Shown here in pieces: positions 43,067 to 62,474 of a stretch of DNA of 64,000 bases. Source of the DNA: Candidatus Helarchaeota archaeon (lineage in GTDB: Archaea > Asgardarchaeota > Lokiarchaeia > Helarchaeales > RDOG01); assembly GCA_019058315.1 (NCBI GenBank), contig JAHPZH010000006.1, forward strand, positions 139,052 through 203,051. Direction: 5' to 3'. The position numbers and the translations under genes are program-made. The first letter of the stretch is position 1, and each line of letters opens with the position of its first letter. The notes below the pieces were generated by a model that searched no databases, was not told where the DNA came from, and saw only the letters and a list, made by a program, of their open reading frames with translations.

Positions 43067-44662
43067 CTATCGAAAATATTGAATTAATCCATAAATTAAT
43101 TCAATTCCACCAAAAATCCAAAATGGAACACTTAACCAATAAAACTCTGGAACTAAAGTCGTAGCTCCAATAATTGTAAAAATTAAACCGATAGTAATTC
43201 CCATTATCCCAAATCCAATATCATAAAATCCGCTTTTTCTGGGATCTTCACTTGGAAATCTCCTTATTTTGATAATTGAACCAATTACAGGGAAAGTTAG
43301 GACAACAGGAAATAGAACTAATGCAATTACAGTAGGTGTTAATATTTCAACACTTAGACTGATATTTGGAGATCCTATGGTTTGAAAGATGCCAGTTGCA
43401 TTAAATAGAATAATAGTAAGGAAAATAAAAGTAATAAGACGATAAATCATACTTACTACGGTAGATCCTAAAACTTTAGAAATATTTGGAGATACTGCAA
43501 CTGCGGCTAAACTTTGTTTCGCTTTTAAATTTTGTTCAAACCGCTCTTCTATATATAATTGTAAATGTTGAGCATCATCATCATCCAATAATTCATCGCT
43601 CCTTTTTTTCCTTAGTTTATACTGTTCTTTTTCTAATTTCTTTCTTTTTTCCATCATCTCTCTTAAATAATCAAAAGCCTCACTTGAAAAGAATCTTCTT
43701 ACTGATATTGAATGAATTTCTACAGTTGGTTCTTTTTCTTCAATTTTAGCTTCCTTTATTTTTTCAATTCGTGTTTCCAATTTATCAATCTGCATTTGTA
43801 ATCTTTTACTTCTTTCTCTTGTTGGAAAATATATTTCTTGAAAATAACTAGTTTGGAGACTTATTTCTAAAAAGATTAAAGCAAAGAATGTGGACAAGAA
43901 TTCAGGACTAATTAAATATGTTGAAATTGGTGTATAATAATACGCATAAATTAAAAGCCCAATTACATTTTGTAAATCTTCTGGAATTAGACTAGAAAAG
44001 TATAATAAATTTAATATTGTATGGTAAATATATGGTCTTAATCGTATTGATAACGAAAGATTGGATAGATCCATTATAATAAATAAAAAATCTGGAAAAT
44101 AAGGTTGTATAAACGTATTGATAAAGACGCTACTTATGATTATTAGGAAGAAATAAAGAACAGCTGTCATTTTTTTCTTTATAATTGAATGAATTAAAAA
44201 GGCAGAAAATACTACCAACAACCCAATAAATGCAATACTCACAAACAATCCTATTAAATTAGCTAGATCTGGAGTTACTACCCAAGTCATAAAAAAATTA
44301 TCAAATAATTCAACAAATATTGGAGTTATTGCTGCCATTAATATAATCATTACGATAAAAATAAAGCTCACAATACTCCAATTTGAATTTCTGGTGTATA
44401 CAAAATATATTAAAAATATAATTGATGAAATCAAAAAAATGATAAATATAGATCGATAAAAAGATGTAAAAAAGGGAAAATTCGGTACTCCTGCCATTGT
44501 AAAGAGCATAGTCCCTAAATATCCACAAAATTGAATAAATGCAGAGAAATTGAAAACATTTGCGGAGAAAACAGATGAAAGTCCTGCTACTGCAAATATA
44601 TAAGTTATTATTGTTAAAATTAAAAGCATAATTACTGAACTGAAGAATTTATTCTGCTCCAT
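43067..44662 (-). CDS. Polytopic membrane protein of the MoxR/DUF58 operon
   Basis: I do not recognise a family. The 531-residue protein has about seven to eight hydrophobic helices in residues 5-285, a long charged, probably coiled-coil segment (about 290-405) containing an acidic DELLDDDDAQ patch, then four more helices. It is the last gene of the six-gene leftward operon, overlapping the DUF58 stop by one base. A membrane scaffold role with the MoxR ATPase is inference from context. Confidence 0.7.
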   Translation of the reverse strand: MEQNKFFSSVIMLLILTIITYIFAVAGLSSVFSANVFNFSAFIQFCGYLGTMLFTMAGVPNFPFFTSFYRSIFIIFLISSIIFLIYFVYTRNSNWSIVSFIFIVMIILMAAITPIFVELFDNFFMTWVVTPDLANLIGLFVSIAFIGLLVVFSAFLIHSIIKKKMTAVLYFFLIIISSVFINTFIQPYFPDFLFIIMDLSNLSLSIRLRPYIYHTILNLLYFSSLIPEDLQNVIGLLIYAYYYTPISTYLISPEFLSTFFALIFLEISLQTSYFQEIYFPTRERSKRLQMQIDKLETRIEKIKEAKIEEKEPTVEIHSISVRRFFSSEAFDYLREMMEKRKKLEKEQYKLRKKRSDELLDDDDAQHLQLYIEERFEQNLKAKQSLAAVAVSPNISKVLGSTVVSMIYRLITFIFLTIILFNATGIFQTIGSPNISLSVEILTPTVIALVLFPVVLTFPVIGSIIKIRRFPSEDPRKSGFYDIGFGIMGITIGLIFTIIGATTLVPEFYWLSVPFWIFGGIELIYGLIQYFR

Positions 44663-45984
44663 TAGATTAGCCCCATCCCCTTCCTTTTTGCTTTCAAGAA
44701 TTCAGATATTATTGTAGGAAAGTAATCCGCAGGTGAAACATTTATTACACTTACTTCTAGACGAGCCAAAGATCGAATGGTAGTCATTCTTTTTTCCCAC
44801 AACTCTTCTGCGATTGCCTGTGTAAGTGCTATATCTACTGGTCTTAACTCTTCAGGTCTTGCTTCAAACCATGGACCAAAAGGACTTATAATTATTATAT
44901 TGTGATCATATGACCTTGCAAGTTGTATAGCTTTTAAAAATTCATCCTTTATATCTTCCATATCAGTTAATAAGAAAAAAAAACTGCTTTTAGGAAGTCT
45001 TTTCACCGCAAAATCCATCGCTTCATATAAGACTTTTTTTCCTGATGCCTGAACTTTAGATAAATTATCTAAAATTTTAAAAAAATTATCACGACCTGGT
45101 TTTGGAGGTAAATAATAATGCATTTTATCAGAAAAAATTAAGAGTCCTATAGAGTCTCTTCTTTCTTGGGCTAAATTTGCAAGTAATACACTTGCTCTAA
45201 TTGAATATTCAAGTTTATCTTCTTCTATTTTTCCTCTTGACATAGAACTCGAAGCATCTAATAGAATTAGAAATCGAATATTTTTTTCTGATTCAAATTC
45301 TCTCACCATGTGTTTTCCCGTTCTTGCTGTTGCTTTCCAATCAATTCTTCTATATTCATCTGCTGTGATGTAAGGACGAATTCCATAAAATTCAGATCCA
45401 TATCCTTTTTGTCTGGTTGCATGAGTTCCAAACATTAGACCTTGACGTCGTCGACTGGCAAATGCTTTCATCCTTCGGACATCCTCATAACTCGGATATA
45501 CTATAATTTCTGTAATATTTCTAACTTTAGATGATTCAAAGTGAAAACCCAAACGATCTCTTATAATAACTTGTATAGGACCTAAGTTATATGCGCCTCT
45601 GTTTTTTGCCATTAGTACATAAGAAAATTCTATTTCCTGGCCCGTATCTAAACGTGTATCTATCCAATTTTCTCCTAATGCTAAGATAAAATTTTCTGGA
45701 TAGATATCATGAACTTCAATAAATTCATAGCTTCTTTTTCCTATATTTCTTAATTTAACTGTCACATGTAAAAAATCGTTGGCAAATACCTTTTCCTTGT
45801 CCAAAGTTCTTTCAAATTCTATATCTTTCATATCAACAGAATATTCAAATAATGGAATTGAAATTACGGTGCTCAAAACACAAAAAATACCTAGAAATAT
45901 TAAATAGTAATTCGTTAATGAAAAACCTAATAATAGAAAAAAAAGTCCAGCAAGAATTAGAATCCTAGCCCGAATTGTTAACAT
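44662..45984 (-). CDS. DUF58 family protein with vWA-like domain
   Basis: This 440-residue protein has two N-terminal membrane helices, an immunoglobulin-like segment (about 50-150), the DUF58 signature YRRIDWKATARTGKHMVREF and a vWA metal site LLDASSSMSRG. DUF58 proteins are encoded beside MoxR ATPases and are presumed partners in assembling or activating other proteins. MoxR is 23 bp upstream, and the stop overlaps the next gene. Confidence 0.9.
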   Translation of the reverse strand: MLTIRARILILAGLFFLLLGFSLTNYYLIFLGIFCVLSTVISIPLFEYSVDMKDIEFERTLDKEKVFANDFLHVTVKLRNIGKRSYEFIEVHDIYPENFILALGENWIDTRLDTGQEIEFSYVLMAKNRGAYNLGPIQVIIRDRLGFHFESSKVRNITEIIVYPSYEDVRRMKAFASRRRQGLMFGTHATRQKGYGSEFYGIRPYITADEYRRIDWKATARTGKHMVREFESEKNIRFLILLDASSSMSRGKIEEDKLEYSIRASVLLANLAQERRDSIGLLIFSDKMHYYLPPKPGRDNFFKILDNLSKVQASGKKVLYEAMDFAVKRLPKSSFFFLLTDMEDIKDEFLKAIQLARSYDHNIIIISPFGPWFEARPEELRPVDIALTQAIAEELWEKRMTTIRSLARLEVSVINVSPADYFPTIISEFLKAKRKGMGLI

Positions 45985-46007
45985 CGATAAATTTGCCTCA
46001 AAATATT

Positions 46008-46958
46008 TTATGTTGGGACAGTTACTTCATTGAGCATATCAGAAATCACTTTATCTAAAGATAATCCTCCTAGCTCTACTTCGGGTTTTAATATTATTCG
46101 ATGTAAAAGGACATGCTTTGCGATGGCTTTGATATCGTCAGGCGTACAATAATCTCGTCCTAATATAGCCCCTCTAGCTTTAGCTCCTTTTAATAATGCT
46201 ATAGAAACTCTAGGACTTCCTCCAAGAAGAACTCGAGGTTCATTTCTCGTTTTAAATACTATATCTTTAATAAAGTCCATAATATCTTCATCAACGTGTA
46301 TTGTTTTAACAGCTTCTTGCATAGCTGCAATTGTCTCTTGATTTGTCACACTTTCAACTTCAACTTCTTTTGGATTATGCATCATTTTTATTAGATCAAC
46401 TTCTTCTTTTTCAGTGGGGTATTCTACCATAAGTTTGAATAGAAATCTATCTACTTGAGCTTCGGGTAGAGGATATGTTCCTTCCATCTCGACTGGATTT
46501 TGTGTTGCTACCACCATAAAAGGTGGAGCTAAAACATGTCTATTTCCTTCTATGGTCACTTGTTTTTCTTGCATGCATTCGAGGAGAGCTGATTGTGTTT
46601 TTGGTGGTGCCCTATTAATTTCATCAGCAAGAACTATATTTGCAAAAATAGGACCTTTTCTTAACACAAAATCCCCAGTTTTTGCATCTAGTACATTTGT
46701 ACCTATAATATCTGCAGGTAACATATCAGGAGTAAACTGGATTCTTTTAAAAGAACAACCAAGCACTTTAGCAAAATTTTTTGCCATGTGTGTTTTTGCA
46801 ACGCCAGGGACACCTTCAAGAAGAACATGTTCATTGCAAAGTAATGCAATAAAAATATTCTGGATAACTTCTCCTTTTCCTACAACTGCCTTTCTAACTT
46901 CTGATAAGATTCTTTGTGCGTTATCTCTGACATCTTTTATTGATAAAGTCAAACTCAT
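46008..46958 (-). CDS. MoxR family AAA+ ATPase
   Basis: This 316-residue ATPase has Walker A GVPGVAKT (residues 49-56), Walker B ILADEINRAPPKTQSALLECM with sensor ATQNPVEMEGTYPLPEAQVDRF, and the arginine finger region. MoxR ATPases act as chaperones for vWA-containing partners, here probably the DUF58 product encoded next. It lies between the DUF4350-like and DUF58 genes on the same strand. Confidence 0.94.
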   Translation of the reverse strand: MSLTLSIKDVRDNAQRILSEVRKAVVGKGEVIQNIFIALLCNEHVLLEGVPGVAKTHMAKNFAKVLGCSFKRIQFTPDMLPADIIGTNVLDAKTGDFVLRKGPIFANIVLADEINRAPPKTQSALLECMQEKQVTIEGNRHVLAPPFMVVATQNPVEMEGTYPLPEAQVDRFLFKLMVEYPTEKEEVDLIKMMHNPKEVEVESVTNQETIAAMQEAVKTIHVDEDIMDFIKDIVFKTRNEPRVLLGGSPRVSIALLKGAKARGAILGRDYCTPDDIKAIAKHVLLHRIILKPEVELGGLSLDKVISDMLNEVTVPT

Positions 46959-47000
46959 CTTTAAAATCTTCCTTATATATTTTTTATAATATTTCGATTT

Positions 47001-48728
47001 TTATTTTATTTGATCATAACACCATTTCATTTCATTAAATGCTTGCAAAAATGTAGTTGGATTTGTTATTTTCATCAATTTTTTATCAACACGTTCAAAT
47101 TTAGTTAAATCACGTTTTAACCTAGTAATATTAACGTGTGGTTTAATATCCTTGATAATTTCAATAATTTGATTAGGATCATAACTTCTTATGTTAATAC
47201 TTTGAATTATATTTCTTTTAAATCGTCTATATAATAAACTAATAGCCTTATTATATTGTCTTTTTCTTTTAAACCATTTCATTCTTTCACTAAATATGGA
47301 TTCACCCTTTGTTTTGACAATTTTAGATTTTTTAATGATTTTTGTTTTTTCAATCTTTGGTATCCATCTACTAACAAGGGCATAAAATAACAAAGGTAAT
47401 ACAGGGACTAGTAATATAAATCCAGAAGATGCATTTATAAATCGTAATATTAAACCAAAGAAGGAAGGAAAAACCTTTTGTTGCTTTGATTCATCAAAAA
47501 CAACAAAATGAGGTGTATTATTAGCCAGATTATTAAGTAAATTCATAGCAAACTTATCGTTATCATATTCTTCTGAAAAAGCAAATAAATTAGTAAAAAT
47601 TTGTGGTTGTGTGGTGATTATTATTCTCTGATTGGCACTCACGCATGAAATCCAAAAAGAACCATTAGAATCCATTATATCATGGAAATAATTCGCATTA
47701 GCATCTACCCATGATGTTGGATTAGTTTTGGCAATTATTTTTGATGTAGTAATATTAAATTGATTATTTAACATATCTAAGATTGCTGCATTAATTTCAT
47801 AGGTATTGCTAATATCGAAAGGTACTCCTGTAATATTTTCTATTGCATCAAACAAAGGATTTTTTTCTCCAGACTTTAATAAATTTTCCCAGCCGGATAT
47901 ACCAAAGTCGATACCTAAATTTAATGGAGTAGGTCTTGTAACTAATATCTTATCAACTTCATCATCTTTATCATTATAAGGATCTCCATTATAAGGATAT
48001 CTTATATCTGTTATAATCATTCCATAAGGTATCTCATTAACTAATAAATTTTCTAAAAATACTGCATTATTCGAATTATTATCGTCATATATTGCGGCAG
48101 AATAAATACCGTTCTCAATCCAATAAGAAAATTTTGGAGATTTTAGTGGTACTTCATTAAAAATAAAATTTGTTAATTTATTCGGATCTGTGAAAAAAGG
48201 ATCCTCAAGCACTTTTGATATATTAAATCCAGCCCTTGTAAAGTTTAAGAATAAATCATACATTGTTTCTTTTACAGGGTCTACAAAATAACTACTCATT
48301 AAATTATTTAATAAAATGAGTTCTGAACCAGTGCCAAAATTAGATGCTAGTAATAGTTTACCCCCATTTCCAACAAAATTGAGCAATGTTATTATTTCAA
48401 ATGGATCAAAAAATTGCACTGGTGCTATTTCAACAAGTATTGTATTCTTGCTTGGTAAAATATACAATGAATTCAATGATGATGTAATTGTTAATGGAAT
48501 ATGCCCAGATTCTGCAGCAGCTTTATAAAAAAATATTGAACTTCCTTTTAAACCATTATTAAAAATCGAATAATCATTTTCTTGTATAAAAAGATTTTCA
48601 AAAGGTGATAAAACGAAAGGTAGCAAAGAAATACCAAAAACTACAAAAAGAATAATTGTTTTACCACCTATACGACCTTCTTTTTCTTTCTTTTTTTTCT
48701 TTTCCTTTTTTTTAGTTTTCTTTTCCAT
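47001..48728 (-). CDS. DUF4350-like membrane protein
   Basis: This 575-residue protein has a very lysine-rich N-terminal tail, a transmembrane helix (about 27-45), a large extracytoplasmic region with an N-terminal GATase-like segment (NGLKGSSIFFYKAAAESG, LLNFVGNGGKLLLASNFGTG) and a second helix near residue 440, followed by a basic cytosolic tail. The layout fits DUF4350 proteins found in MoxR-DUF58-DUF4129 operons. The GATase-like fold in such proteins is generally non-catalytic. Confidence 0.72.
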   Translation of the reverse strand: MEKKTKKKEKKKKKEKEGRIGGKTIILFVVFGISLLPFVLSPFENLFIQENDYSIFNNGLKGSSIFFYKAAAESGHIPLTITSSLNSLYILPSKNTILVEIAPVQFFDPFEIITLLNFVGNGGKLLLASNFGTGSELILLNNLMSSYFVDPVKETMYDLFLNFTRAGFNISKVLEDPFFTDPNKLTNFIFNEVPLKSPKFSYWIENGIYSAAIYDDNNSNNAVFLENLLVNEIPYGMIITDIRYPYNGDPYNDKDDEVDKILVTRPTPLNLGIDFGISGWENLLKSGEKNPLFDAIENITGVPFDISNTYEINAAILDMLNNQFNITTSKIIAKTNPTSWVDANANYFHDIMDSNGSFWISCVSANQRIIITTQPQIFTNLFAFSEEYDNDKFAMNLLNNLANNTPHFVVFDESKQQKVFPSFFGLILRFINASSGFILLVPVLPLLFYALVSRWIPKIEKTKIIKKSKIVKTKGESIFSERMKWFKRKRQYNKAISLLYRRFKRNIIQSINIRSYDPNQIIEIIKDIKPHVNITRLKRDLTKFERVDKKLMKITNPTTFLQAFNEMKWCYDQIK

Positions 48729-48744
48729 TGATTAAAAACACCAA

Positions 48745-49128
48745 TTAACTCTTTGGAACTACTTCAACTCTTACAAGTTCCCCAACAATTACTTGGAATA
48801 ATTTACCAAACATTCGATTAGCCTCTGAATATGCACTAGGTGATATACTGTGACTAGAATACCTTGCTTCTTCATATAAAGTTGTAAATGGATAAACAAG
48901 GGTAGGATCTAATTTTGTATCCTTTATAATTCCCATAATAAATTCTCTAAAGGTTTGACTTTTTGTTGGAGCTTTGTTTAAATGCCCCTTAATTAATTCT
49001 ATAAAGATTTGATAGGAATATATCACAGCCTCTCTAAATCTTTTTCCGTCGATTAAGGATTTTAATTGTTTTTCTACTTTTTTAACATCAATTGCTTTTG
49101 TTTTTAATCTTCTACGAGATCTTGCCAT
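48745..49128 (-). CDS. Small protein paralogous to the cytosolic tail of the neighbouring transglutaminase (DUF4129-like)
   Basis: This 127-residue soluble protein aligns with the C-terminal tail of the 1634-residue protein upstream. KQLKSLIDGKRFREAVIYSY matches KKLKSLIDGNRYKEAIVFLY, and TFREFIMGI, LDPTLVYPFTTLYEEARYSS and SEANRMFGKL have counterparts in order. The YEEARYS motif is typical of DUF4129. It lies 27 bp downstream of that gene, 16 bp before the DUF4350-like gene. It may compete for, or share, a cytosolic partner. Confidence 0.75.
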   Translation of the reverse strand: MARSRRRLKTKAIDVKKVEKQLKSLIDGKRFREAVIYSYQIFIELIKGHLNKAPTKSQTFREFIMGIIKDTKLDPTLVYPFTTLYEEARYSSHSISPSAYSEANRMFGKLFQVIVGELVRVEVVPKS

Positions 49129-49155
49129 TTTTTATCATATCCAAATATTTTATTA

Positions 49156-52100
49156 TCATTCTATTTTAGGTATATTATTCTCCATTGGAGGTATTTCAGG
49201 CTCAGGTTCTTCTTCCTCAATTTCTATTTGTTCAAGTTCAAATGATTTTCTTATTAACTTTTCAAATAATTTATATGTATTCGTATAAATGGATTGAGTA
49301 ATTAAATGATTTGAAAAGCGAGCTTCTTCATAATTCGTGGTGAATGGATATATAAGATTAGGATCTAATTCTATTTTGGTTACTAATGAAGTCATCAATT
49401 CACGAAATGTTAAACCGGGAAGAGGTGGTTTTTTTAATTTTTCTAAAATTTTACTAAAGAAAATTTGGTAGAGAAAAACTATCGCTTCCTTATATCTATT
49501 TCCATCAATTAATGATTTTAATTTTTTTTGAAAATTACTAATCTGGATAGATTCTATAAACCTTTCAATTTGTAATTTTCGATGATACAATTTTCCAATA
49601 ATAATAACCACAACTACCACTACTGCAATTATAACGATAATCCAGACCCAATTATAATTCTCAGGTTGCGTATAACCTAATATGGTAATTTCATTGGACT
49701 CATATGCGGAACTTCCCTCAAAATACGCTTGAAATGTAAACACAGGACCAATAATAGGCATTATAAAGATAAATTCTCCACTTGAATCAGTTTTAAAATT
49801 TCCAATAGTCTGACCAAACATTTTTAATTCAACTGATCTCCCCATAATTTTTAACGAATTATTAGCATCATATGCTTTTCCAATAACTACCACAAAACTT
49901 CCTACAATTACTATTGGAGTTGGAGTCGAAAGTTTAACACGCGGGTCTGAAAAAATATTGATATTTCGTGTTAAGGATGTATTTAAATAATATCCCGAAC
50001 TATTAAAGACCACTGTAATATTATGATTACCAACTGCTGCTATTGGGATAGTACAATTAATTATAAAATAACCATTAATTCCTATTATAGGAGGGATGAT
50101 AGATAATTGGGTTGAATTCATGAAAATACTTATATAATTCTTATATCCTGGAATTTGTTGGTTTATATTATCAGTAATTCTACCACTAATAATAATAAAC
50201 TCACCCACACGGAAAGAATTGTAATTAAAACTTAATTGCTTAATAGCACTAGTGGTATTAATTGAAATAGTATTTGAAATATCTCCTTGTAAAATGAAAT
50301 AAATCGGATTTGTGATTGTTGCATTTATTATATATGTTCCTAGAATATACGAACTCGGAATTATAAAAGTTATATTGAAATGACCTGTCTCATTTGTTAT
50401 TGTTGATTGAATTGACTGATTATTAAGCAGAATTAAAATTTGCTCATTCGATATATTAAATGCCGAATCATTATGTGTAACTTGCCCAGAAATGAAAAGT
50501 GCAGTAACTCCCCTAAATACTGAGTTGGGGGTAACATTAGAAATGGAAATGTTTACCCAAATATACTTTAATGTAATAAAATTTGATATATCATCTTGCC
50601 AAATATAATATGAAGAGTTTGTTGTGGTAGCATTAATTAAATAAATACCCGGAGTTGCAGTTATTGGAATTATAAAAGTTGAGTTAAAATATCCAGTGCT
50701 ATTTGTTGTAGTATTTACAACATTCGTATTATTAAGCAGAATTTCAATTATTTCTCCGTTTGGAATTGTATTTAAGGACCCATTTATTAAAACACGTCCA
50801 GATATGAAGAGTTGCGTTTTTCCCATATAAACAGTGTTAGGAGTTACATTAGATATTGAGAAGTTCACCCAAATAGGATTGACTTGAATAATATTGGATA
50901 TATCATCCTGCCAAATATAATACGAAGAATTAGTCGTTGTAGCATTAATTATGTAAATACCAGGAGTTTGAGTTATAGGAATGATAAATGTTGAGTTGAA
51001 ATGACCAGTGCTATTTGTAGTAGTATTTACAATATTCGTATTATTGAGTAGAATAGCAATTATTTCCCCTGCTGGAATAGTATTGGAAGTACCATTAATT
51101 AAGACACGTCCAGATATAAAAATTGGATCTACACCCCTAATCACTGAGTTGGGGGTGACATTAGATATCGAGAAGTTCACCCAAGTAGGATTGACTTGAA
51201 TAATATTAGATATATCATCTTGCCAAATATAATATGAAGAGTTTGTTGTTGTAGCATTAATTATGTAAAATCCGGGAGTTTGAGTAATTGGAACGATAAA
51301 AGTTGAGTTGAAATGACCAGTGCCATTTGTAGTGGTATTTATAATATTCAAATTATTTAGTAAAATTGAAATTACCTCCCCAGCTGCAATAGTATTAGAA
51401 GTACCATTAATTAAGACACGTCCAGATATAAAAATTGGATTTATACCTCTAACTACTGAAAGGGGAGTTACATTATCAATTGAAAAGTTCAAAAAAGTTG
51501 GATATAAAGTGAGATTATTCCAATTTGTGTCATCTTTAAAAGGATAATATGTAATATTTGTGGTTGTGGCGTTTACTGTATAGAGTCCTGGAGAGACTGA
51601 TAATGGAATTATAAATGTTTTATTAAAATATCCTGTCATATTTGTGGTTGTATTTATAGATATAGGAGAATTATTAAATAGAATTGAAATTACTTCATTC
51701 GAAATATTCATTTGTCCATCTTTATGAACCACTCTTCCCGAAATAAAAACGTTTGTTACTCCTCTTCTTGGATCGAGTGGATTGACTTCGAATATGGTGA
51801 AATTAACACGAATAACTGCTGGAGGATCGGGAATTACAGAAGAATTCATAAAATAGGGAGAGGTAATTGAAGTATTAACTTTGATTGTAACATTTACACC
51901 CGCTTCATGATCTGAAGGAATAAAATATGTTATTGAGTAAAATCCATTTGCAATGGTTGTATTTGTTCCAACAAAGAATTCTCCCGATGAATTTGTCTCA
52001 TAAGCATTGACAATTTGACCCGGTAGTCCAGTTCCATTATCTAACAATAAATTCCCATAAATAGTAAAATTTTCACCAAGAGGTAATACTGAGGGATTGA

Positions 52101-54060
52101 AATTTTTTGTCAAAGAAGTGTTAGCCATTAATATTAAGTCAAATTCACTGCTATTTGATTCACTTCCTACAATAGATCCGACAGATAAATCTGGAAATGG
52201 AAATGGAAAATCAGCAAAAAATGTACCATTAAAATAAGCGTGAATATGATAAATTCCAACATCATAACTGATTGGAATAGTTCCGCTTGTATTTATTTGA
52301 AATATTCCATTAACATCTGTAATTCCAGAACCAATTAATTGGTTAGTCTCATTTATATATAATTTTATTAACCCTCCTTCAACTGTTCTGGTATTCACAT
52401 CATCTGTAAGATTACCTTTAATTGTTAAAGCAATAATATTGTTCCTAAGTAGAGATAAATTTGTATAAGAAGATGCGAGGGTTCCATTGATTTCAGTAAT
52501 ATAAACTTGAGTTGTACCTCTACAAGTAACATATATTGGAGAATTGTTAGTTATTGCTAACCATGAAGCATTAAATCTATGTGGACCAACAAGAGAACTA
52601 TCAAAAAATCGGTTTATAAATGTTGATTCATTATTATTACCAACTTGAGCAAATCCTAAATATGTATTATTAGTATAATCACTGAAATTTATATTTATAA
52701 TTGGCTCGAGAGCGGTTCTGTTGACAGGTGCGTAATTTTTTAAGAGTTGGGCTTTTAATTCAAAAAAATCTGTATTTCTATTTTGGTGGTTAACCGGAGT
52801 TACATTAGCATATAGATTTAGATCGAAATGATCAGTTTCCATTCTGTCATCATTTATTCTCATTGGAATAAGATAATTCCATAAGTATGGAACTGGGGTA
52901 GGATCAAATTGAACCCAATTCCCACCACTTGAACTATCGGGGATCCAAACTTCTGTCCAATAGTGAACGTTAAGTAATGGAAGCCAAGGTGGGGTAATTG
53001 TTAGATAACCTACAGTTCCCATGACATATCTTGTAGAAATATTTAAATATCTCAAGAACAAAGAAAATGCAGTCGCGAAATCCTCGCTATCTCCATATCC
53101 ACTTGTTAAAAATCGAATAATATCTTTATTCGTTGTATTTATAATAGGATTATAGCGGAACCTGGTTTTAAAATACTCTAAGGCTGCTAAAGTTGTATCA
53201 TAAGTATTATTTGTACTTGATATTGGGCTAATTGTTGATAAAAAATCTTGAAGATAAGTATTTATAGAAGGTATATTTGTAACTTGTAAATATTTTCCTG
53301 GAAGTGAAGCCCCTTGAGAGGGAGGAGTAGAAGCGACATTTTGCTCAATATAAGTTAAATTTGCATTAGGATTATAACTAACATTATAAATTATTTGACA
53401 GTTAGTTGGGTTTATTCCAGTATAAGTTAAATTTAAAATAGCATCTTTGTATTCATTAGTTAATAAATTCCACGTTATATTAACACTAGGAGTTATGCTA
53501 AATGCTGGTGAGGTTAAGATTAAAGGAGAATCCCAAAGAATTGGTAGGGGAATTGGTGCCCCACCTATCCCTTGTAATGCCAAGTCTATTCTAACTTGAT
53601 AAATATCAGCACCTGAAAAAGGAGTAGCATAATTTAAAGATTGAAATGTTGTATTGGTTTGGGACCAATCAGTTCCATCAAAATTATCATATGTAAAAAG
53701 TCTCCAGTAACGAGGAATAGTATCTGGAGTTACTGAAATATTGATATTAGTTCCTAAATCATCCGGTAGGAGATCTATTGATTGCATTAAATCTATTAAA
53801 AGTTGTAACAAATCCTGAGGTGATATATCCTGTTCTAGGGGTGGTATAAATGCACCAATAGGAAAATCTCCTAATCTTATTTTACTTGTGAGAGCCCCTG
53901 GATCAAAGAAAAAGGATGATGGTAAAACTGAAATCACAACTATCCCAGAAAATAAAATGATAAAGGTAAAAGCAGCAGTTGTTATCGGTTTGCGGGCATA
54001 TCTTCTAGCAGATAAATCTTCTGTTTCTCTTCTTCTATCTTGATTATTCCGAGAGGACAT
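49156..54060 (-). CDS. Giant membrane protein with transglutaminase fold, tandem Ig-like repeats and DUF4129-like tail
   Basis: This 1634-residue protein begins with a cytosolic tail and a transmembrane helix (about 28-47), then an extracellular region with a transglutaminase-like core (about 280-400). The triad positions read Ser325 (GYGDSEDFATAF, where Cys is expected), His366 (NVHYWTEVW) and Asp386 (WVQFDPTP). Beta-sandwich repeats of about 100 residues occupy about 560-1470, three of them nearly identical. A helix near 1500 leads to a cytosolic domain of DUF4129 type with the YEEARFSNH motif. It heads the operon. The catalytic Cys loss suggests a binding role or an unusual Ser nucleophile. 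Confidence 0.82.
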   Translation of the reverse strand: MSSRNNQDRRRETEDLSARRYARKPITTAAFTFIILFSGIVVISVLPSSFFFDPGALTSKIRLGDFPIGAFIPPLEQDISPQDLLQLLIDLMQSIDLLPDDLGTNINISVTPDTIPRYWRLFTYDNFDGTDWSQTNTTFQSLNYATPFSGADIYQVRIDLALQGIGGAPIPLPILWDSPLILTSPAFSITPSVNITWNLLTNEYKDAILNLTYTGINPTNCQIIYNVSYNPNANLTYIEQNVASTPPSQGASLPGKYLQVTNIPSINTYLQDFLSTISPISSTNNTYDTTLAALEYFKTRFRYNPIINTTNKDIIRFLTSGYGDSEDFATAFSLFLRYLNISTRYVMGTVGYLTITPPWLPLLNVHYWTEVWIPDSSSGGNWVQFDPTPVPYLWNYLIPMRINDDRMETDHFDLNLYANVTPVNHQNRNTDFFELKAQLLKNYAPVNRTALEPIININFSDYTNNTYLGFAQVGNNNESTFINRFFDSSLVGPHRFNASWLAITNNSPIYVTCRGTTQVYITEINGTLASSYTNLSLLRNNIIALTIKGNLTDDVNTRTVEGGLIKLYINETNQLIGSGITDVNGIFQINTSGTIPISYDVGIYHIHAYFNGTFFADFPFPFPDLSVGSIVGSESNSSEFDLILMANTSLTKNFNPSVLPLGENFTIYGNLLLDNGTGLPGQIVNAYETNSSGEFFVGTNTTIANGFYSITYFIPSDHEAGVNVTIKVNTSITSPYFMNSSVIPDPPAVIRVNFTIFEVNPLDPRRGVTNVFISGRVVHKDGQMNISNEVISILFNNSPISINTTTNMTGYFNKTFIIPLSVSPGLYTVNATTTNITYYPFKDDTNWNNLTLYPTFLNFSIDNVTPLSVVRGINPIFISGRVLINGTSNTIAAGEVISILLNNLNIINTTTNGTGHFNSTFIVPITQTPGFYIINATTTNSSYYIWQDDISNIIQVNPTWVNFSISNVTPNSVIRGVDPIFISGRVLINGTSNTIPAGEIIAILLNNTNIVNTTTNSTGHFNSTFIIPITQTPGIYIINATTTNSSYYIWQDDISNIIQVNPIWVNFSISNVTPNTVYMGKTQLFISGRVLINGSLNTIPNGEIIEILLNNTNVVNTTTNSTGYFNSTFIIPITATPGIYLINATTTNSSYYIWQDDISNFITLKYIWVNISISNVTPNSVFRGVTALFISGQVTHNDSAFNISNEQILILLNNQSIQSTITNETGHFNITFIIPSSYILGTYIINATITNPIYFILQGDISNTISINTTSAIKQLSFNYNSFRVGEFIIISGRITDNINQQIPGYKNYISIFMNSTQLSIIPPIIGINGYFIINCTIPIAAVGNHNITVVFNSSGYYLNTSLTRNINIFSDPRVKLSTPTPIVIVGSFVVVIGKAYDANNSLKIMGRSVELKMFGQTIGNFKTDSSGEFIFIMPIIGPVFTFQAYFEGSSAYESNEITILGYTQPENYNWVWIIVIIAVVVVVVIIIGKLYHRKLQIERFIESIQISNFQKKLKSLIDGNRYKEAIVFLYQIFFSKILEKLKKPPLPGLTFRELMTSLVTKIELDPNLIYPFTTNYEEARFSNHLITQSIYTNTYKLFEKLIRKSFELEQIEIEEEEPEPEIPPMENNIPKIE
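50520..51500 (-). repeat. 312-bp tandem repeats inside the transglutaminase gene
   Basis: The landmark CCAAATATAATA recurs at 50599, 50911 and 51223, exactly 312 bases apart, each followed by closely similar sequence; 312 bp equals 104 codons, one Ig-like domain. More diverged copies extend on both sides. The high DNA identity means recent duplication and a risk of copy-number collapse in assembly. Confidence 0.8.
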
Positions 54061-57804: not shown

Positions 57805-59631
57805 TTATTTTTTTCGATAAAAAATACCTTTTTTAATTGTGCCTTCCAATTCTCCACTATCAATTAATTTAATTATGATACCCTCAACTTTGATATTACT
57901 CATTCCTAATTTTTCAGCTAAAATACTAATTGGTATTTTATCTAATTTTTCAAGTCGCTTAGCCAATTCTGATTTTGGTTTAGGAGGTGGACCGGTAGGT
58001 TTTTTTGCTACTTTGACAGATTCTGGGGTCGGAGCTATAGGGGTTTTTTTCGGCTTTTTTTCTTCCTTAACTTTTTTAATTGGAGTTATAGCACTTTCAA
58101 ATAGGTTCAAATATGTCATTGCACCTAATAACAAATTTCCTTCTAAAGAATTACGATCACTAACTTCTAGGGGTTCTGCAAACTTAACTTCTGCTTCTAA
58201 TAAGAAATCCATAATTTTATCAGAACTGAATTTTATTTCAGGATGTTCTATGTTTAATTTTTTAATTTTTGAAATATCGTTCAAGACTCTTTTATTCCAT
58301 TGTTCAAATTCATCTAAATTATAGATAAAAACTCCATGTTGAACTGATGTAGAGCTGAACCATCCAATTAAGTCACGAATTATAAAACCAGTGCAATTAC
58401 CTTGAGTCCAATCTATTTTTGGATGAAATTCTTTACAAACTAGATTATTCATACCAGAAACGATATTACAAGAGTAATTTTCTTTTCCCCAATTATCCCA
58501 TGCTAGATAAATGAACTTTTCTTCTCCTCGATGTTTTATTTTTAATTTAACTTTATCATCTTCTAAAATAAAATCTCCTATTTTAGCTGTTATAGCTGTG
58601 TTTAATGGTGCCTGTCCTTCTTGCTGAGGGGAAGTTGGAGGCTGTGTGGTTTGCGAAGTTTGTGAAGCAGTAGGTTTGGGAGGGAGTGCTATTATTTTAG
58701 AAGCAGGTTTTGAGGTAGTTTTTTCCGTAACAGGTAATTTTAATAAGAATAAACAATGCGGACATCTGCAAACACCGCCTTCAATCATTTTACTTTGTTT
58801 AGCCCATTCTTCAGCACAATGAATATGCATTCCTGTTTTGCAATATGGACATAATCTAATACATTCTGTAGTTCCATCAACTGGACATTTATCAGTTCTA
58901 CAAATTTCACAAAAATTTACTTTTACTCCCATTAATTTATTTACTGCTTTTTGCATCTCTTCTGAAAGGCTGGTCAAATCCAATAAATCAGCAGCAATTA
59001 AGGATAACTTTGGCATTGTTTTTTTCAATTCGAATACATCTTTCTTATGGCTCAAGCTTTTTATAGTAACTTCAAGCAAGGATTTATCATAAATATTATA
59101 AAATTCACCTAGAATTGCCATTGATTCTAATAATTTACCAAAAGATCTAGTTTCTAGTTTTGAAATTTCAATACAATCAGTAATTATTCCTAACTCTGCA
59201 GCTACATTTGCTCTCTCGATGGGATCTATACTCGAAAGTGTTGCTTTTCCATCTGAAATTATTAAGATACGATTAACATTCCCCCCACTAGCAGAATCTC
59301 CTGCCTTAGCCATCTTTTGACCTATAAATTGAACTGTAAATCCCATTCCTTCACCCAAAGCTGAAATTCCGTGGACTCTAACATTTTTTATCGCACTTAT
59401 AATTTGATCTAAATCATCAGTATAATCTTGAACTACTTGACCAGCTGTAGAAAATGTGATAAGTGCAAATCGATCTGCCTTATCTATTTCATTTTTCAAT
59501 TTGACCCATTCTATAAGAGCACTTTTAACAGCCTCAATTCTACAAGGATCAAAATCTTTTCTTGCCATCGAACGTGATACGTCCATAAGTATAACAGTAT
59601 CTTCGATATCAAATTCTCTAGTATCGGACAT
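57805..59631 (-). CDS. vWA domain - RING-like zinc domain - winged-helix protein
   Basis: This 608-residue soluble protein starts with a von Willebrand A domain (about 1-200) with the metal motif DVSRS (residues 17-21) and ISDG near 127. KDFDPCRIEAV (residues 25-35) resembles the stretch conserved in proteasome Rpn10 and TFIIH p44. A RING-like cysteine/histidine cluster follows: Cys241, Cys244, Cys257, Cys261, Cys264, His269, Cys272, Cys288, Cys290 and Cys293. A Pro/Thr-rich linker, a globular region (about 345-510), a Lys/Pro linker and a C-terminal winged helix (ISILAEKLGMSNIKVEG) complete it. An E3-like or complex-scaffold role is inference. Confidence 0.72.
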   Translation of the reverse strand: MSDTREFDIEDTVILMDVSRSMARKDFDPCRIEAVKSALIEWVKLKNEIDKADRFALITFSTAGQVVQDYTDDLDQIISAIKNVRVHGISALGEGMGFTVQFIGQKMAKAGDSASGGNVNRILIISDGKATLSSIDPIERANVAAELGIITDCIEISKLETRSFGKLLESMAILGEFYNIYDKSLLEVTIKSLSHKKDVFELKKTMPKLSLIAADLLDLTSLSEEMQKAVNKLMGVKVNFCEICRTDKCPVDGTTECIRLCPYCKTGMHIHCAEEWAKQSKMIEGGVCRCPHCLFLLKLPVTEKTTSKPASKIIALPPKPTASQTSQTTQPPTSPQQEGQAPLNTAITAKIGDFILEDDKVKLKIKHRGEEKFIYLAWDNWGKENYSCNIVSGMNNLVCKEFHPKIDWTQGNCTGFIIRDLIGWFSSTSVQHGVFIYNLDEFEQWNKRVLNDISKIKKLNIEHPEIKFSSDKIMDFLLEAEVKFAEPLEVSDRNSLEGNLLLGAMTYLNLFESAITPIKKVKEEKKPKKTPIAPTPESVKVAKKPTGPPPKPKSELAKRLEKLDKIPISILAEKLGMSNIKVEGIIIKLIDSGELEGTIKKGIFYRKK

Positions 59632-61373: not shown

Positions 61374-62474
61374 TTATTTTATTTTAATAAAAGACAATAA
61401 ATCGTTTATATTTTCTTTATTTTTTGCAGAAATGTAAAAATATGGATATTTTGAAAGTACAGGTTCTAAATATTGTATAATTATTTCAAACTCCTGCTTT
61501 GATATTAAATCAAATTTGTTGAAGACTAAAAGGACTTTATTAAGATTTATGCCAATTTCTTTTAACAAATTTAAGCTATATTCCAATTTATAATTAATTA
61601 AATCGAGTTTGTCATCAAGTGCAATTAAATAGATCAAAATATCAGCATTTTGCATGTCCATTAAGTTCAATTCAAAGCTTTTAATCAATCTTGGGTCCAA
61701 ATCTATTACAAATCCTATGGTATCAACAAACATGATATTAAAATTTTTATTAATTCTCCGATATTTACTAGATAATGTGGTAAAAGGTAAATCGCTAGTA
61801 GGTTTCTGCGAACCAGTGAATAAATTAAATAATGTCGTCTTCCCAGCGTTATAATAACCTACAATGCAACAAATTTTTCCACCATTCAATATTTCTCTTC
61901 TTTTTTGGATTCTCTTTAATTTTTTTGTTTTCATTTGTTCTATTTCAGTTGTCAAAGTTGCTATCTTTTTATCATAACTCTTAATTTTTGAGTGAAATGC
62001 AAATTCTCCTGGCCCAAATTTTCGAGCTGGTAGGTCTTGTTTAAATTTGATATTAGCCTGTAATTTATACAAAGGAAACTGTTTTCTTAATTGAGCTAAT
62101 TGAATTTGAATCTTTGATAGTTTATCTGTTGAATTCTTTTCAAAAATCTTTAGTGTAAGTTCATATCGGTCTAAAATTTCAACCTCTTGATGACCAGATA
62201 ATTCTGTTAATAAATTCAGTTTCTGTTTGCTAGTTAAAGTATTGTAAAAAATAACAGTTTCAATATTTAATTCTTGAATTAATTTCTTTAGTTCTTGAAC
62301 TTTGCCTTTTCCTATAAGAAATTTGGATTTTTTCTTTAATTTAGTTTGAATTATTTTCGTGATAATTTCATAATTTAATGATTCTGCAAGTTTTTCTAGT
62401 TCTCTTATTTGGATTTTATAAAAAAAATGATCATGAATATCGGTTTTAAGCAGACAGAGGATACTTCTTTTCAT
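61374..62474 (-). CDS. hflX: HflX-type ribosome-associated GTPase
   Basis: This 366-residue protein has the HflX N-terminal domain (KSKFLIGKGKVQELKKLI), the linker GPGEFAFHSK and a G domain with GYYNAGKTTLFN (P-loop), LPFTTLSSKYRR (G2), VDTIGFV (G3) and VFNKFD (G4). The G2 and G4 motifs are intact. Archaeal HflX binds the 50S subunit. It is convergent with acr3. Confidence 0.93.
   Translation of the reverse strand: MKRSILCLLKTDIHDHFFYKIQIRELEKLAESLNYEIITKIIQTKLKKKSKFLIGKGKVQELKKLIQELNIETVIFYNTLTSKQKLNLLTELSGHQEVEILDRYELTLKIFEKNSTDKLSKIQIQLAQLRKQFPLYKLQANIKFKQDLPARKFGPGEFAFHSKIKSYDKKIATLTTEIEQMKTKKLKRIQKRREILNGGKICCIVGYYNAGKTTLFNLFTGSQKPTSDLPFTTLSSKYRRINKNFNIMFVDTIGFVIDLDPRLIKSFELNLMDMQNADILIYLIALDDKLDLINYKLEYSLNLLKEIGINLNKVLLVFNKFDLISKQEFEIIIQYLEPVLSKYPYFYISAKNKENINDLLSFIKIK

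Follow-up and report, generated by a model that had tools for sequence, protein, structure and literature searches.

The window analysed here is a 64,000-nucleotide stretch of DNA from a Candidatus Helarchaeota archaeon, whose source assembly comprises 5.79 Mb in 12 contigs. It contains a complete open reading frame for a 608-residue protein, in which a vWA domain is followed by a RING module (RING1), a linker, a middle domain and a winged helix (Table 1). The frame begins with ATG, and GAGG lies approximately 5 nt upstream of the start codon. A sequence-only reading of this DNA had described the reading frame, its vWA domain and the motifs DVSRS (residues 17–21) and KDFDPCRIEAV (residues 25–35), and each of these is exactly as it stated.

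Table 1. Features of the 608-residue protein and of its surroundings, in window coordinates.
Feature	Position	Strand	Remarks
Complete ORF, 608 aa	57805..59631	-	vWA - RING1 - linker - middle domain - winged helix
vWA domain, residues 9-195	59047..59607	-	Pfam VWA_2 2.3e-14; MIDAS D17-x-S19-x-S21 + D127
RING1, residues 240-300	58732..58914	-	eight ligands; E2-contact positions I243, W276, P291
Low-complexity Pro/Thr/Gln linker, residues 301-344	58600..58731	-	AF2 pLDDT <50; differs in homologues
Middle domain, residues 345-520	58072..58599	-	conserved in three genomes only
Winged helix, residues 555-604	57820..57969	-	secondary structure H-H-E-E
Zinc-ribbon-like protein, 238 aa	57066..57782	+	convergent neighbour, downstream of the 608-aa gene
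HflX-type GTPase	61374..62474	-	upstream of the 608-aa gene
MoxR-vWA/TgpA-like cluster	43067..54060		4 kb from the 608-aa gene
DUF58 vWA	44662..45984		member of the cluster
MoxR AAA	46008..46958		member of the cluster

In the AlphaFold2 model of the 608-residue protein (overall pLDDT 62.6) the vWA domain and RING1 are well predicted. The pLDDT of the vWA domain is mostly 80–97 up to residue 160 and lower beyond, and Foldseek aligns the domain to the Ssl1 vWA (4wfq) with a TM score of 0.80. The RING1 ligands are Cys241, Cys244, Cys261, Cys264, His269, Cys272, Cys290 and Cys293. All eight are invariant throughout the family alignments, so the set is not a product of chance. The sequence-only reading had counted about ten Cys/His ligands in RING-like spacing; the spacing stands, but the remaining Cys249, Cys257 and His271 of this stretch are not conserved.

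Relatives of the protein were found in 81 of the 83 genomes of the host class, which was assigned as Lokiarchaeia through named relatives, and in none of the 145 other Asgard genomes (228 genomes of the phylum were searched). A search of genome contigs with the single sequence returned no relatives; the search with the family alignment recovered named records, all of them from Lokiarchaeota/Lokiarchaeia. Outside this class the family profile meets vWA-only or RING-only proteins and no whole-length relatives, a distribution that bears on whether the gene was inherited vertically, lost or transferred. Genomes usually carry two or more copies, mostly of approximately 400 residues, and the canonical architecture is vWA-RING1-RING2. 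These canonical copies harbor two eight-ligand C4HC3 modules, and each of the sixteen zinc ligands shows no or almost no variation.

RING2 is absent from the 608-residue protein and, in the alignment, the middle domain occupies its position. This long form is known from three genomes only, the source genome and two others, here called G083 (619 residues, 48% identity) and G081 (686 residues, 48% identity). In the tree the 608-residue protein groups with the canonical copy from the source genome (support 98/94); it is thus a duplicate specific to its lineage, with a new C-terminal half in place of RING2. The protein is, we conclude, a recent, elongated, lineage-specific variant of the canonical vWA-RING family. 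Its middle domain is 50% identical in G083 and 46% in G081 and has no other match across the 83 genomes of the class and none in Pfam. The winged helix is predicted with low confidence. The sequence-only reading had likened this tail to PCI-type tails, and that likeness was abandoned: the PCI model scores 23.8 bits against a cut-off of 22 but covers the winged-helix half only, the G083 homologue reaches DDRGK/PCI at only E 0.05/0.18, and the G081 homologue has a double zinc ribbon in place of the winged helix. The tail is therefore a generic winged helix, and it is not conserved.

The surroundings of the long gene are partly shared with G083. The convergent 238-residue neighbour is kept there in the same arrangement (47.6% identity). 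In G083 the HflX homologue immediately precedes the long vWA-RING gene and overlaps its start by a few codons (L040:8562-11578), which suggests that the two are co-translated; in the window, the HflX gene and the 608-residue gene are separated by genes for an ArsR protein and an SBF transporter. The MoxR-vWA/TgpA-like cluster of the window also contains DUF4350 and DUF4129 members and a 1634-residue transglutaminase/MG2 protein.

The two RING modules of the family differ in their E2-contact positions. The RING1 pattern C-x2-C, C-x2-C-x4-H-x2-C, C-x2-C was found in 118 of 121 matches, and the E2-contact residues Ile, Trp and Pro are present in 112, 113 and 111 of these 118, respectively, and all three in the 608-residue protein. 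As judged from this pattern, RING1 has the eight-ligand spacing of a RING-type cross-brace and not that of the plain zinc ribbon that the sequence-only reading had named as the alternative. The signature elements, C-x-I-C, C-x3-W and C-P-x-C, are shared with the RING-H2 E3s Arkadia and RNF165 and with FANCL and Nse1. RING2 is devoid of Trp at the E2-contact position and usually has Gly at the linchpin Arg/Lys position. In searches, the best match of RING2 was the Arkadia E3 RING (1.4e-5), and RING1 matched FANCL (0.055) and Nse1 (0.2) weakly. Compared with RING-H2 ligases such as Arkadia and RNF165, the family has the C4HC3 ligand order, a vWA fusion and no linchpin, there being no Arg or Lys directly after the last Cys of RING1. 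The eukaryotic vWA-RING E3s RGLG and WAV3 likewise combine vWA and RING in one chain, but with a different vWA, of the copine type, and in a different domain order.

We then turn to the vWA domain, which the sequence-only reading had compared with TFIIH p44 and proteasomal Rpn10. The Pfam Ssl1 (TFIIH p44) model scored over its cut-off in 79 of the 228 Asgard genomes, the listed over-cut-off places being family genes, and in none of 14 control genomes, although 11 of these encode vWA proteins. The 608-residue copy itself gave no Ssl1 match at E<=10, and its G081 homologue matched at 3.4e-7; since this copy does not reach the model by itself, the argument is made from the family. Searched against the PDB, the family profile retrieved Rpn10 (2.9e-19; 2x5n), p44 (6.5e-16), a Vibrio vWA (4.4e-16) and BatB (1.5e-11). 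In the reverse direction, human p44 and two Rpn10 queries, taken from printed alignments, matched family members only among all ORFs searched, which included further vWA genes from this genome as well as 16 additional non-family vWA domains. For human p44 the top-scoring Loki relative reached 41.7 bits, compared with 26.6 for Rpn10, and for S. pombe Rpn10 the top-scoring Loki match reached 44.1 bits, compared with 23.1 for p44, the Loki values being the best of many and hence somewhat flattered.

Structural comparison placed p44 first. With the AlphaFold2 model of a canonical member (pLDDT 88), ranks 1–17 of a Foldseek search of the PDB were full-length p44/Ssl1 structures aligned over 390–412 columns with E values down to 1.6e-16, followed by Rpn10 from 1.4e-12 and then BatB at 2.4e-11. 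The model of the 608-residue protein likewise had p44/Ssl1 at the top, and BatB and Rpn10 followed on a par with each other. Full-length superposition on p44 gave an rmsd of 17–20 Å, which indicates that domain order and folds agree with p44 while the mutual arrangement of the domains does not. The resemblance claimed earlier thus stands on Ssl1 specificity and Foldseek order. The D..P.R motif, which had been its starting point, was rejected as proof of kinship as bacterial BatB has DVQPSR; because the motif is undiagnostic, the case rests on the profile, structure and specificity tests. Among the vWA proteins examined, the family is the closest to eukaryotic p44/Ssl1 and Rpn10, and its vWA is probably homologous to theirs.

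These data bear on the idea that the family is a generic vWA zinc scaffold of BatA-type kin, in which zinc is structural and the likeness to p44 and Rpn10 reflects an ancestry common to cytosolic vWAs. NCBIfam BatA models score up to 2.6e-15 on the family, similar to the Ssl1 scores, the Vibrio vWA lies close to p44 in the profile search, and D..P.R is common to BatB. Whether the family groups with bacterial vWAs receives a divided answer: the maximum-likelihood tree of vWA domains, which has long branches and small sampling, places the family, p44 and Rpn10 in one group apart from the other vWAs (95/98), but AU tests reject none of the alternative placements (p 0.24–0.43), including a eukaryotic plus bacterial grouping (p 0.24). 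We nevertheless regard a generic scaffold as quite improbable, as other vWA proteins of the same genomes miss the Ssl1 model and are missed by the p44 and Rpn10 queries, and RING1 keeps E2-contact residues besides its zinc ligands.

Improbable to much the same degree, in our estimate, is an Rpn10-like role, in which the vWA would dock to a proteasome-like particle or to ubiquitin conjugates and the RINGs would be protein-binding modules only. Rpn10/S5a is the closest solved vWA by sequence profile, shares the DxS..M...D..P.R.EA stretch and recovers family members only, and JAB proteases are encoded in the genome. However, Rpn10 has no RING, whereas RING domains take up the C-terminus of the family, its MIDAS is degenerate (DNSEWM) and that of the family intact, whole-length architecture and Foldseek favour p44, and no linkage to proteasome genes was seen.

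The whole-length match raises the further possibility that archaea have in this family their equivalent of p44, with type A of its paralogues also corresponding to p34, such that the vWA binds and regulates XPD and the paralogues pair through vWA-RING contacts as p34 and p44 do. Like TFIIH p44/Ssl1, the canonical protein has an N-terminal vWA, then zinc modules and a C-terminal RING-like domain, and both are approximately 395 residues long. Genomes usually carry two paralogues, the copies being of type A or type B, and an XPD-type helicase was found in 76 of the 83 class genomes (18 of the 18 good ones). In eukaryotes, XPD is contacted by the p44 vWA, and the p34 vWA is bound by the C-terminal RING of p44 (PMC4094531, PMC6422496). 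The Tfb4/p34 model (PF03850) matches 56 of the 83 genomes, nearly all at type A copies, and no control genome (0/14), but these matches are weak and only 9 of 83 exceed the cut-off. The p34 and p44 subunits are likewise paired vWA-zinc paralogues, and the preference of the Tfb4 model for type A hints at a p44/p34-like division between the paralogues; p34, however, has a single C-terminal four-Cys finger and no RING. XPD functions without p44 in other archaea, Tfb2/p52 is absent over cut-off in all 83 genomes, and in the neighbourhoods examined family genes are unlinked to XPD, XPB or NER genes.

The zinc modules also separate the family from p44. The central module of p44 is a four-Cys finger, where the family has eight ligands and an E2-binding signature, and its C-terminal RING is C4C4 rather than C4HC3; moreover, the MIDAS is intact in the family, unlike that of p44/Ssl1, and the 608-residue copy has no counterpart of the C-terminal RING-like domain. 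Because it carries two eight-ligand C4HC3 modules instead of a four-Cys finger followed by a C4C4 RING, we do not file the family as p44, and a p44 or p44/p34 counterpart appears unlikely. Nor do we assign orthology to any one TFIIH subunit, given the BatA scores, the AU tests, the weak Tfb4 matches and the absence of Tfb2/p52. Of the earlier proposal of homology to p44 or Rpn10, we thus retain the closeness of the family to both and make no claim of strict orthology.

The loci themselves show conserved neighbours, none of which indicates repair, and NER-operon linkage was rejected as none was found. Of 51 type A genes, 42 have an MtrH-like methyltransferase gene downstream and 38 a gene for a TPR protein. 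For example, at one type A locus (L086:8004-11459) the vWA-RING-RING gene is followed by same-strand genes for an MtrH-like methyltransferase and a TPR/SNAP-like protein. MetRS lies downstream of type B genes in 36 of 60 cases, and an M20 peptidase is also a conserved neighbour.

We slightly favour, from sequence features, the view that the family acts as a RING E3-like ubiquitin ligase, or as a scaffold that recruits E2, and uses its p44/Rpn10-type vWA for docking. The ubiquitin-like, E1 and E2 genes that the sequence-only reading had proposed looking for are all present in the source genome, as is JAB, with five matches to E2 models and with E1-E2-JAB operons. The canonical paralogue of the 608-residue protein (G000:C6:271195) has a ThiF gene 70 bp away and, at a distance of approximately 1 kb, the JAB gene that belongs to an RWD/RING-E1-E2-JAB cluster (L039:2032-10368; G000:C6:264031-272367). 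This cluster encodes a 421-residue RWD/E2-like protein with a C-terminal RING, E1, E2 and a JAB protein with a coiled-coil tail, followed by a second ThiF gene on the opposite strand and then the canonical vWA-RING-RING gene. Conserved membership in ubiquitin operons was rejected: the adjacency was seen in the source genome and in no other, in G083 the canonical gene and E2-JAB are on different contigs, and a single case could be chance among the ~150 copies examined. This, together with the missing Arg/Lys after the last Cys of RING1, counts against an E3 function.

If the family does act in ubiquitin transfer, RING1 would recruit the ubiquitin-charged E2 of the host E1-E2-JAB system through its conserved contact residues, and the vWA would dock a substrate or partner complex via its intact MIDAS face, by analogy with the vWA domains of p44 and Rpn10, the latter of which docks into the 19S lid. 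The canonical RING2, without Trp and linchpin Arg/Lys, may have a structural or dimerising role, as the C4C4 RING of p44 does, and in the 608-residue protein the new domain and winged helix that replace RING2 may redirect it to another target.

Apart from XPB and XPD, the core subunits of TFIIH are regarded as inventions of eukaryotes. A 2026 review describes a TFIIH-like assembly as lacking in archaea (PMC13024598). In the open-access literature searched, we came across no account of a p44, Rpn10 or vWA-RING protein from Asgard archaea. With a class-wide Asgard family that is specifically related, among prokaryotic proteins, to p44 and Rpn10 and carries an E2-binding-type RING, two questions become testable with recombinant proteins: the origin of the TFIIH and proteasome vWA scaffolds, and whether RING E3 ligases that have substrate domains of their own are older than eukaryotes. 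The eukaryotic p44 and Rpn10 subunits may derive from such a vWA-RING protein, and the family may show where their parts came from. A stronger version, which we find rather doubtful, traces both the p44/p34 vWA-zinc pair of TFIIH and the vWA of Rpn10 back to an Asgard family of vWA-RING ubiquitin ligases, of which the two Lokiarchaeia paralogues are the survivors. Were this true, ubiquitin transfer would have been connected to the XPD repair helicase before eukaryotes arose, and the E3 activity that has been proposed for yeast Ssl1 (PMC4094531) would be left over from that connection.

The gene that follows JAB encodes a RING-type protein in several further ubiquitin operons of Loki genomes, and this protein weakly matches the same zinc profiles. 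These proteins are approximately 390–420 residues long and have a C-terminal RING-like domain (L237:10306-11475, L244:6407-7573, L247:6857-8128 and L255:10373-11542), and the post-JAB RING-like gene is a candidate for the dedicated E3 of the Loki E1-E2-JAB operons.
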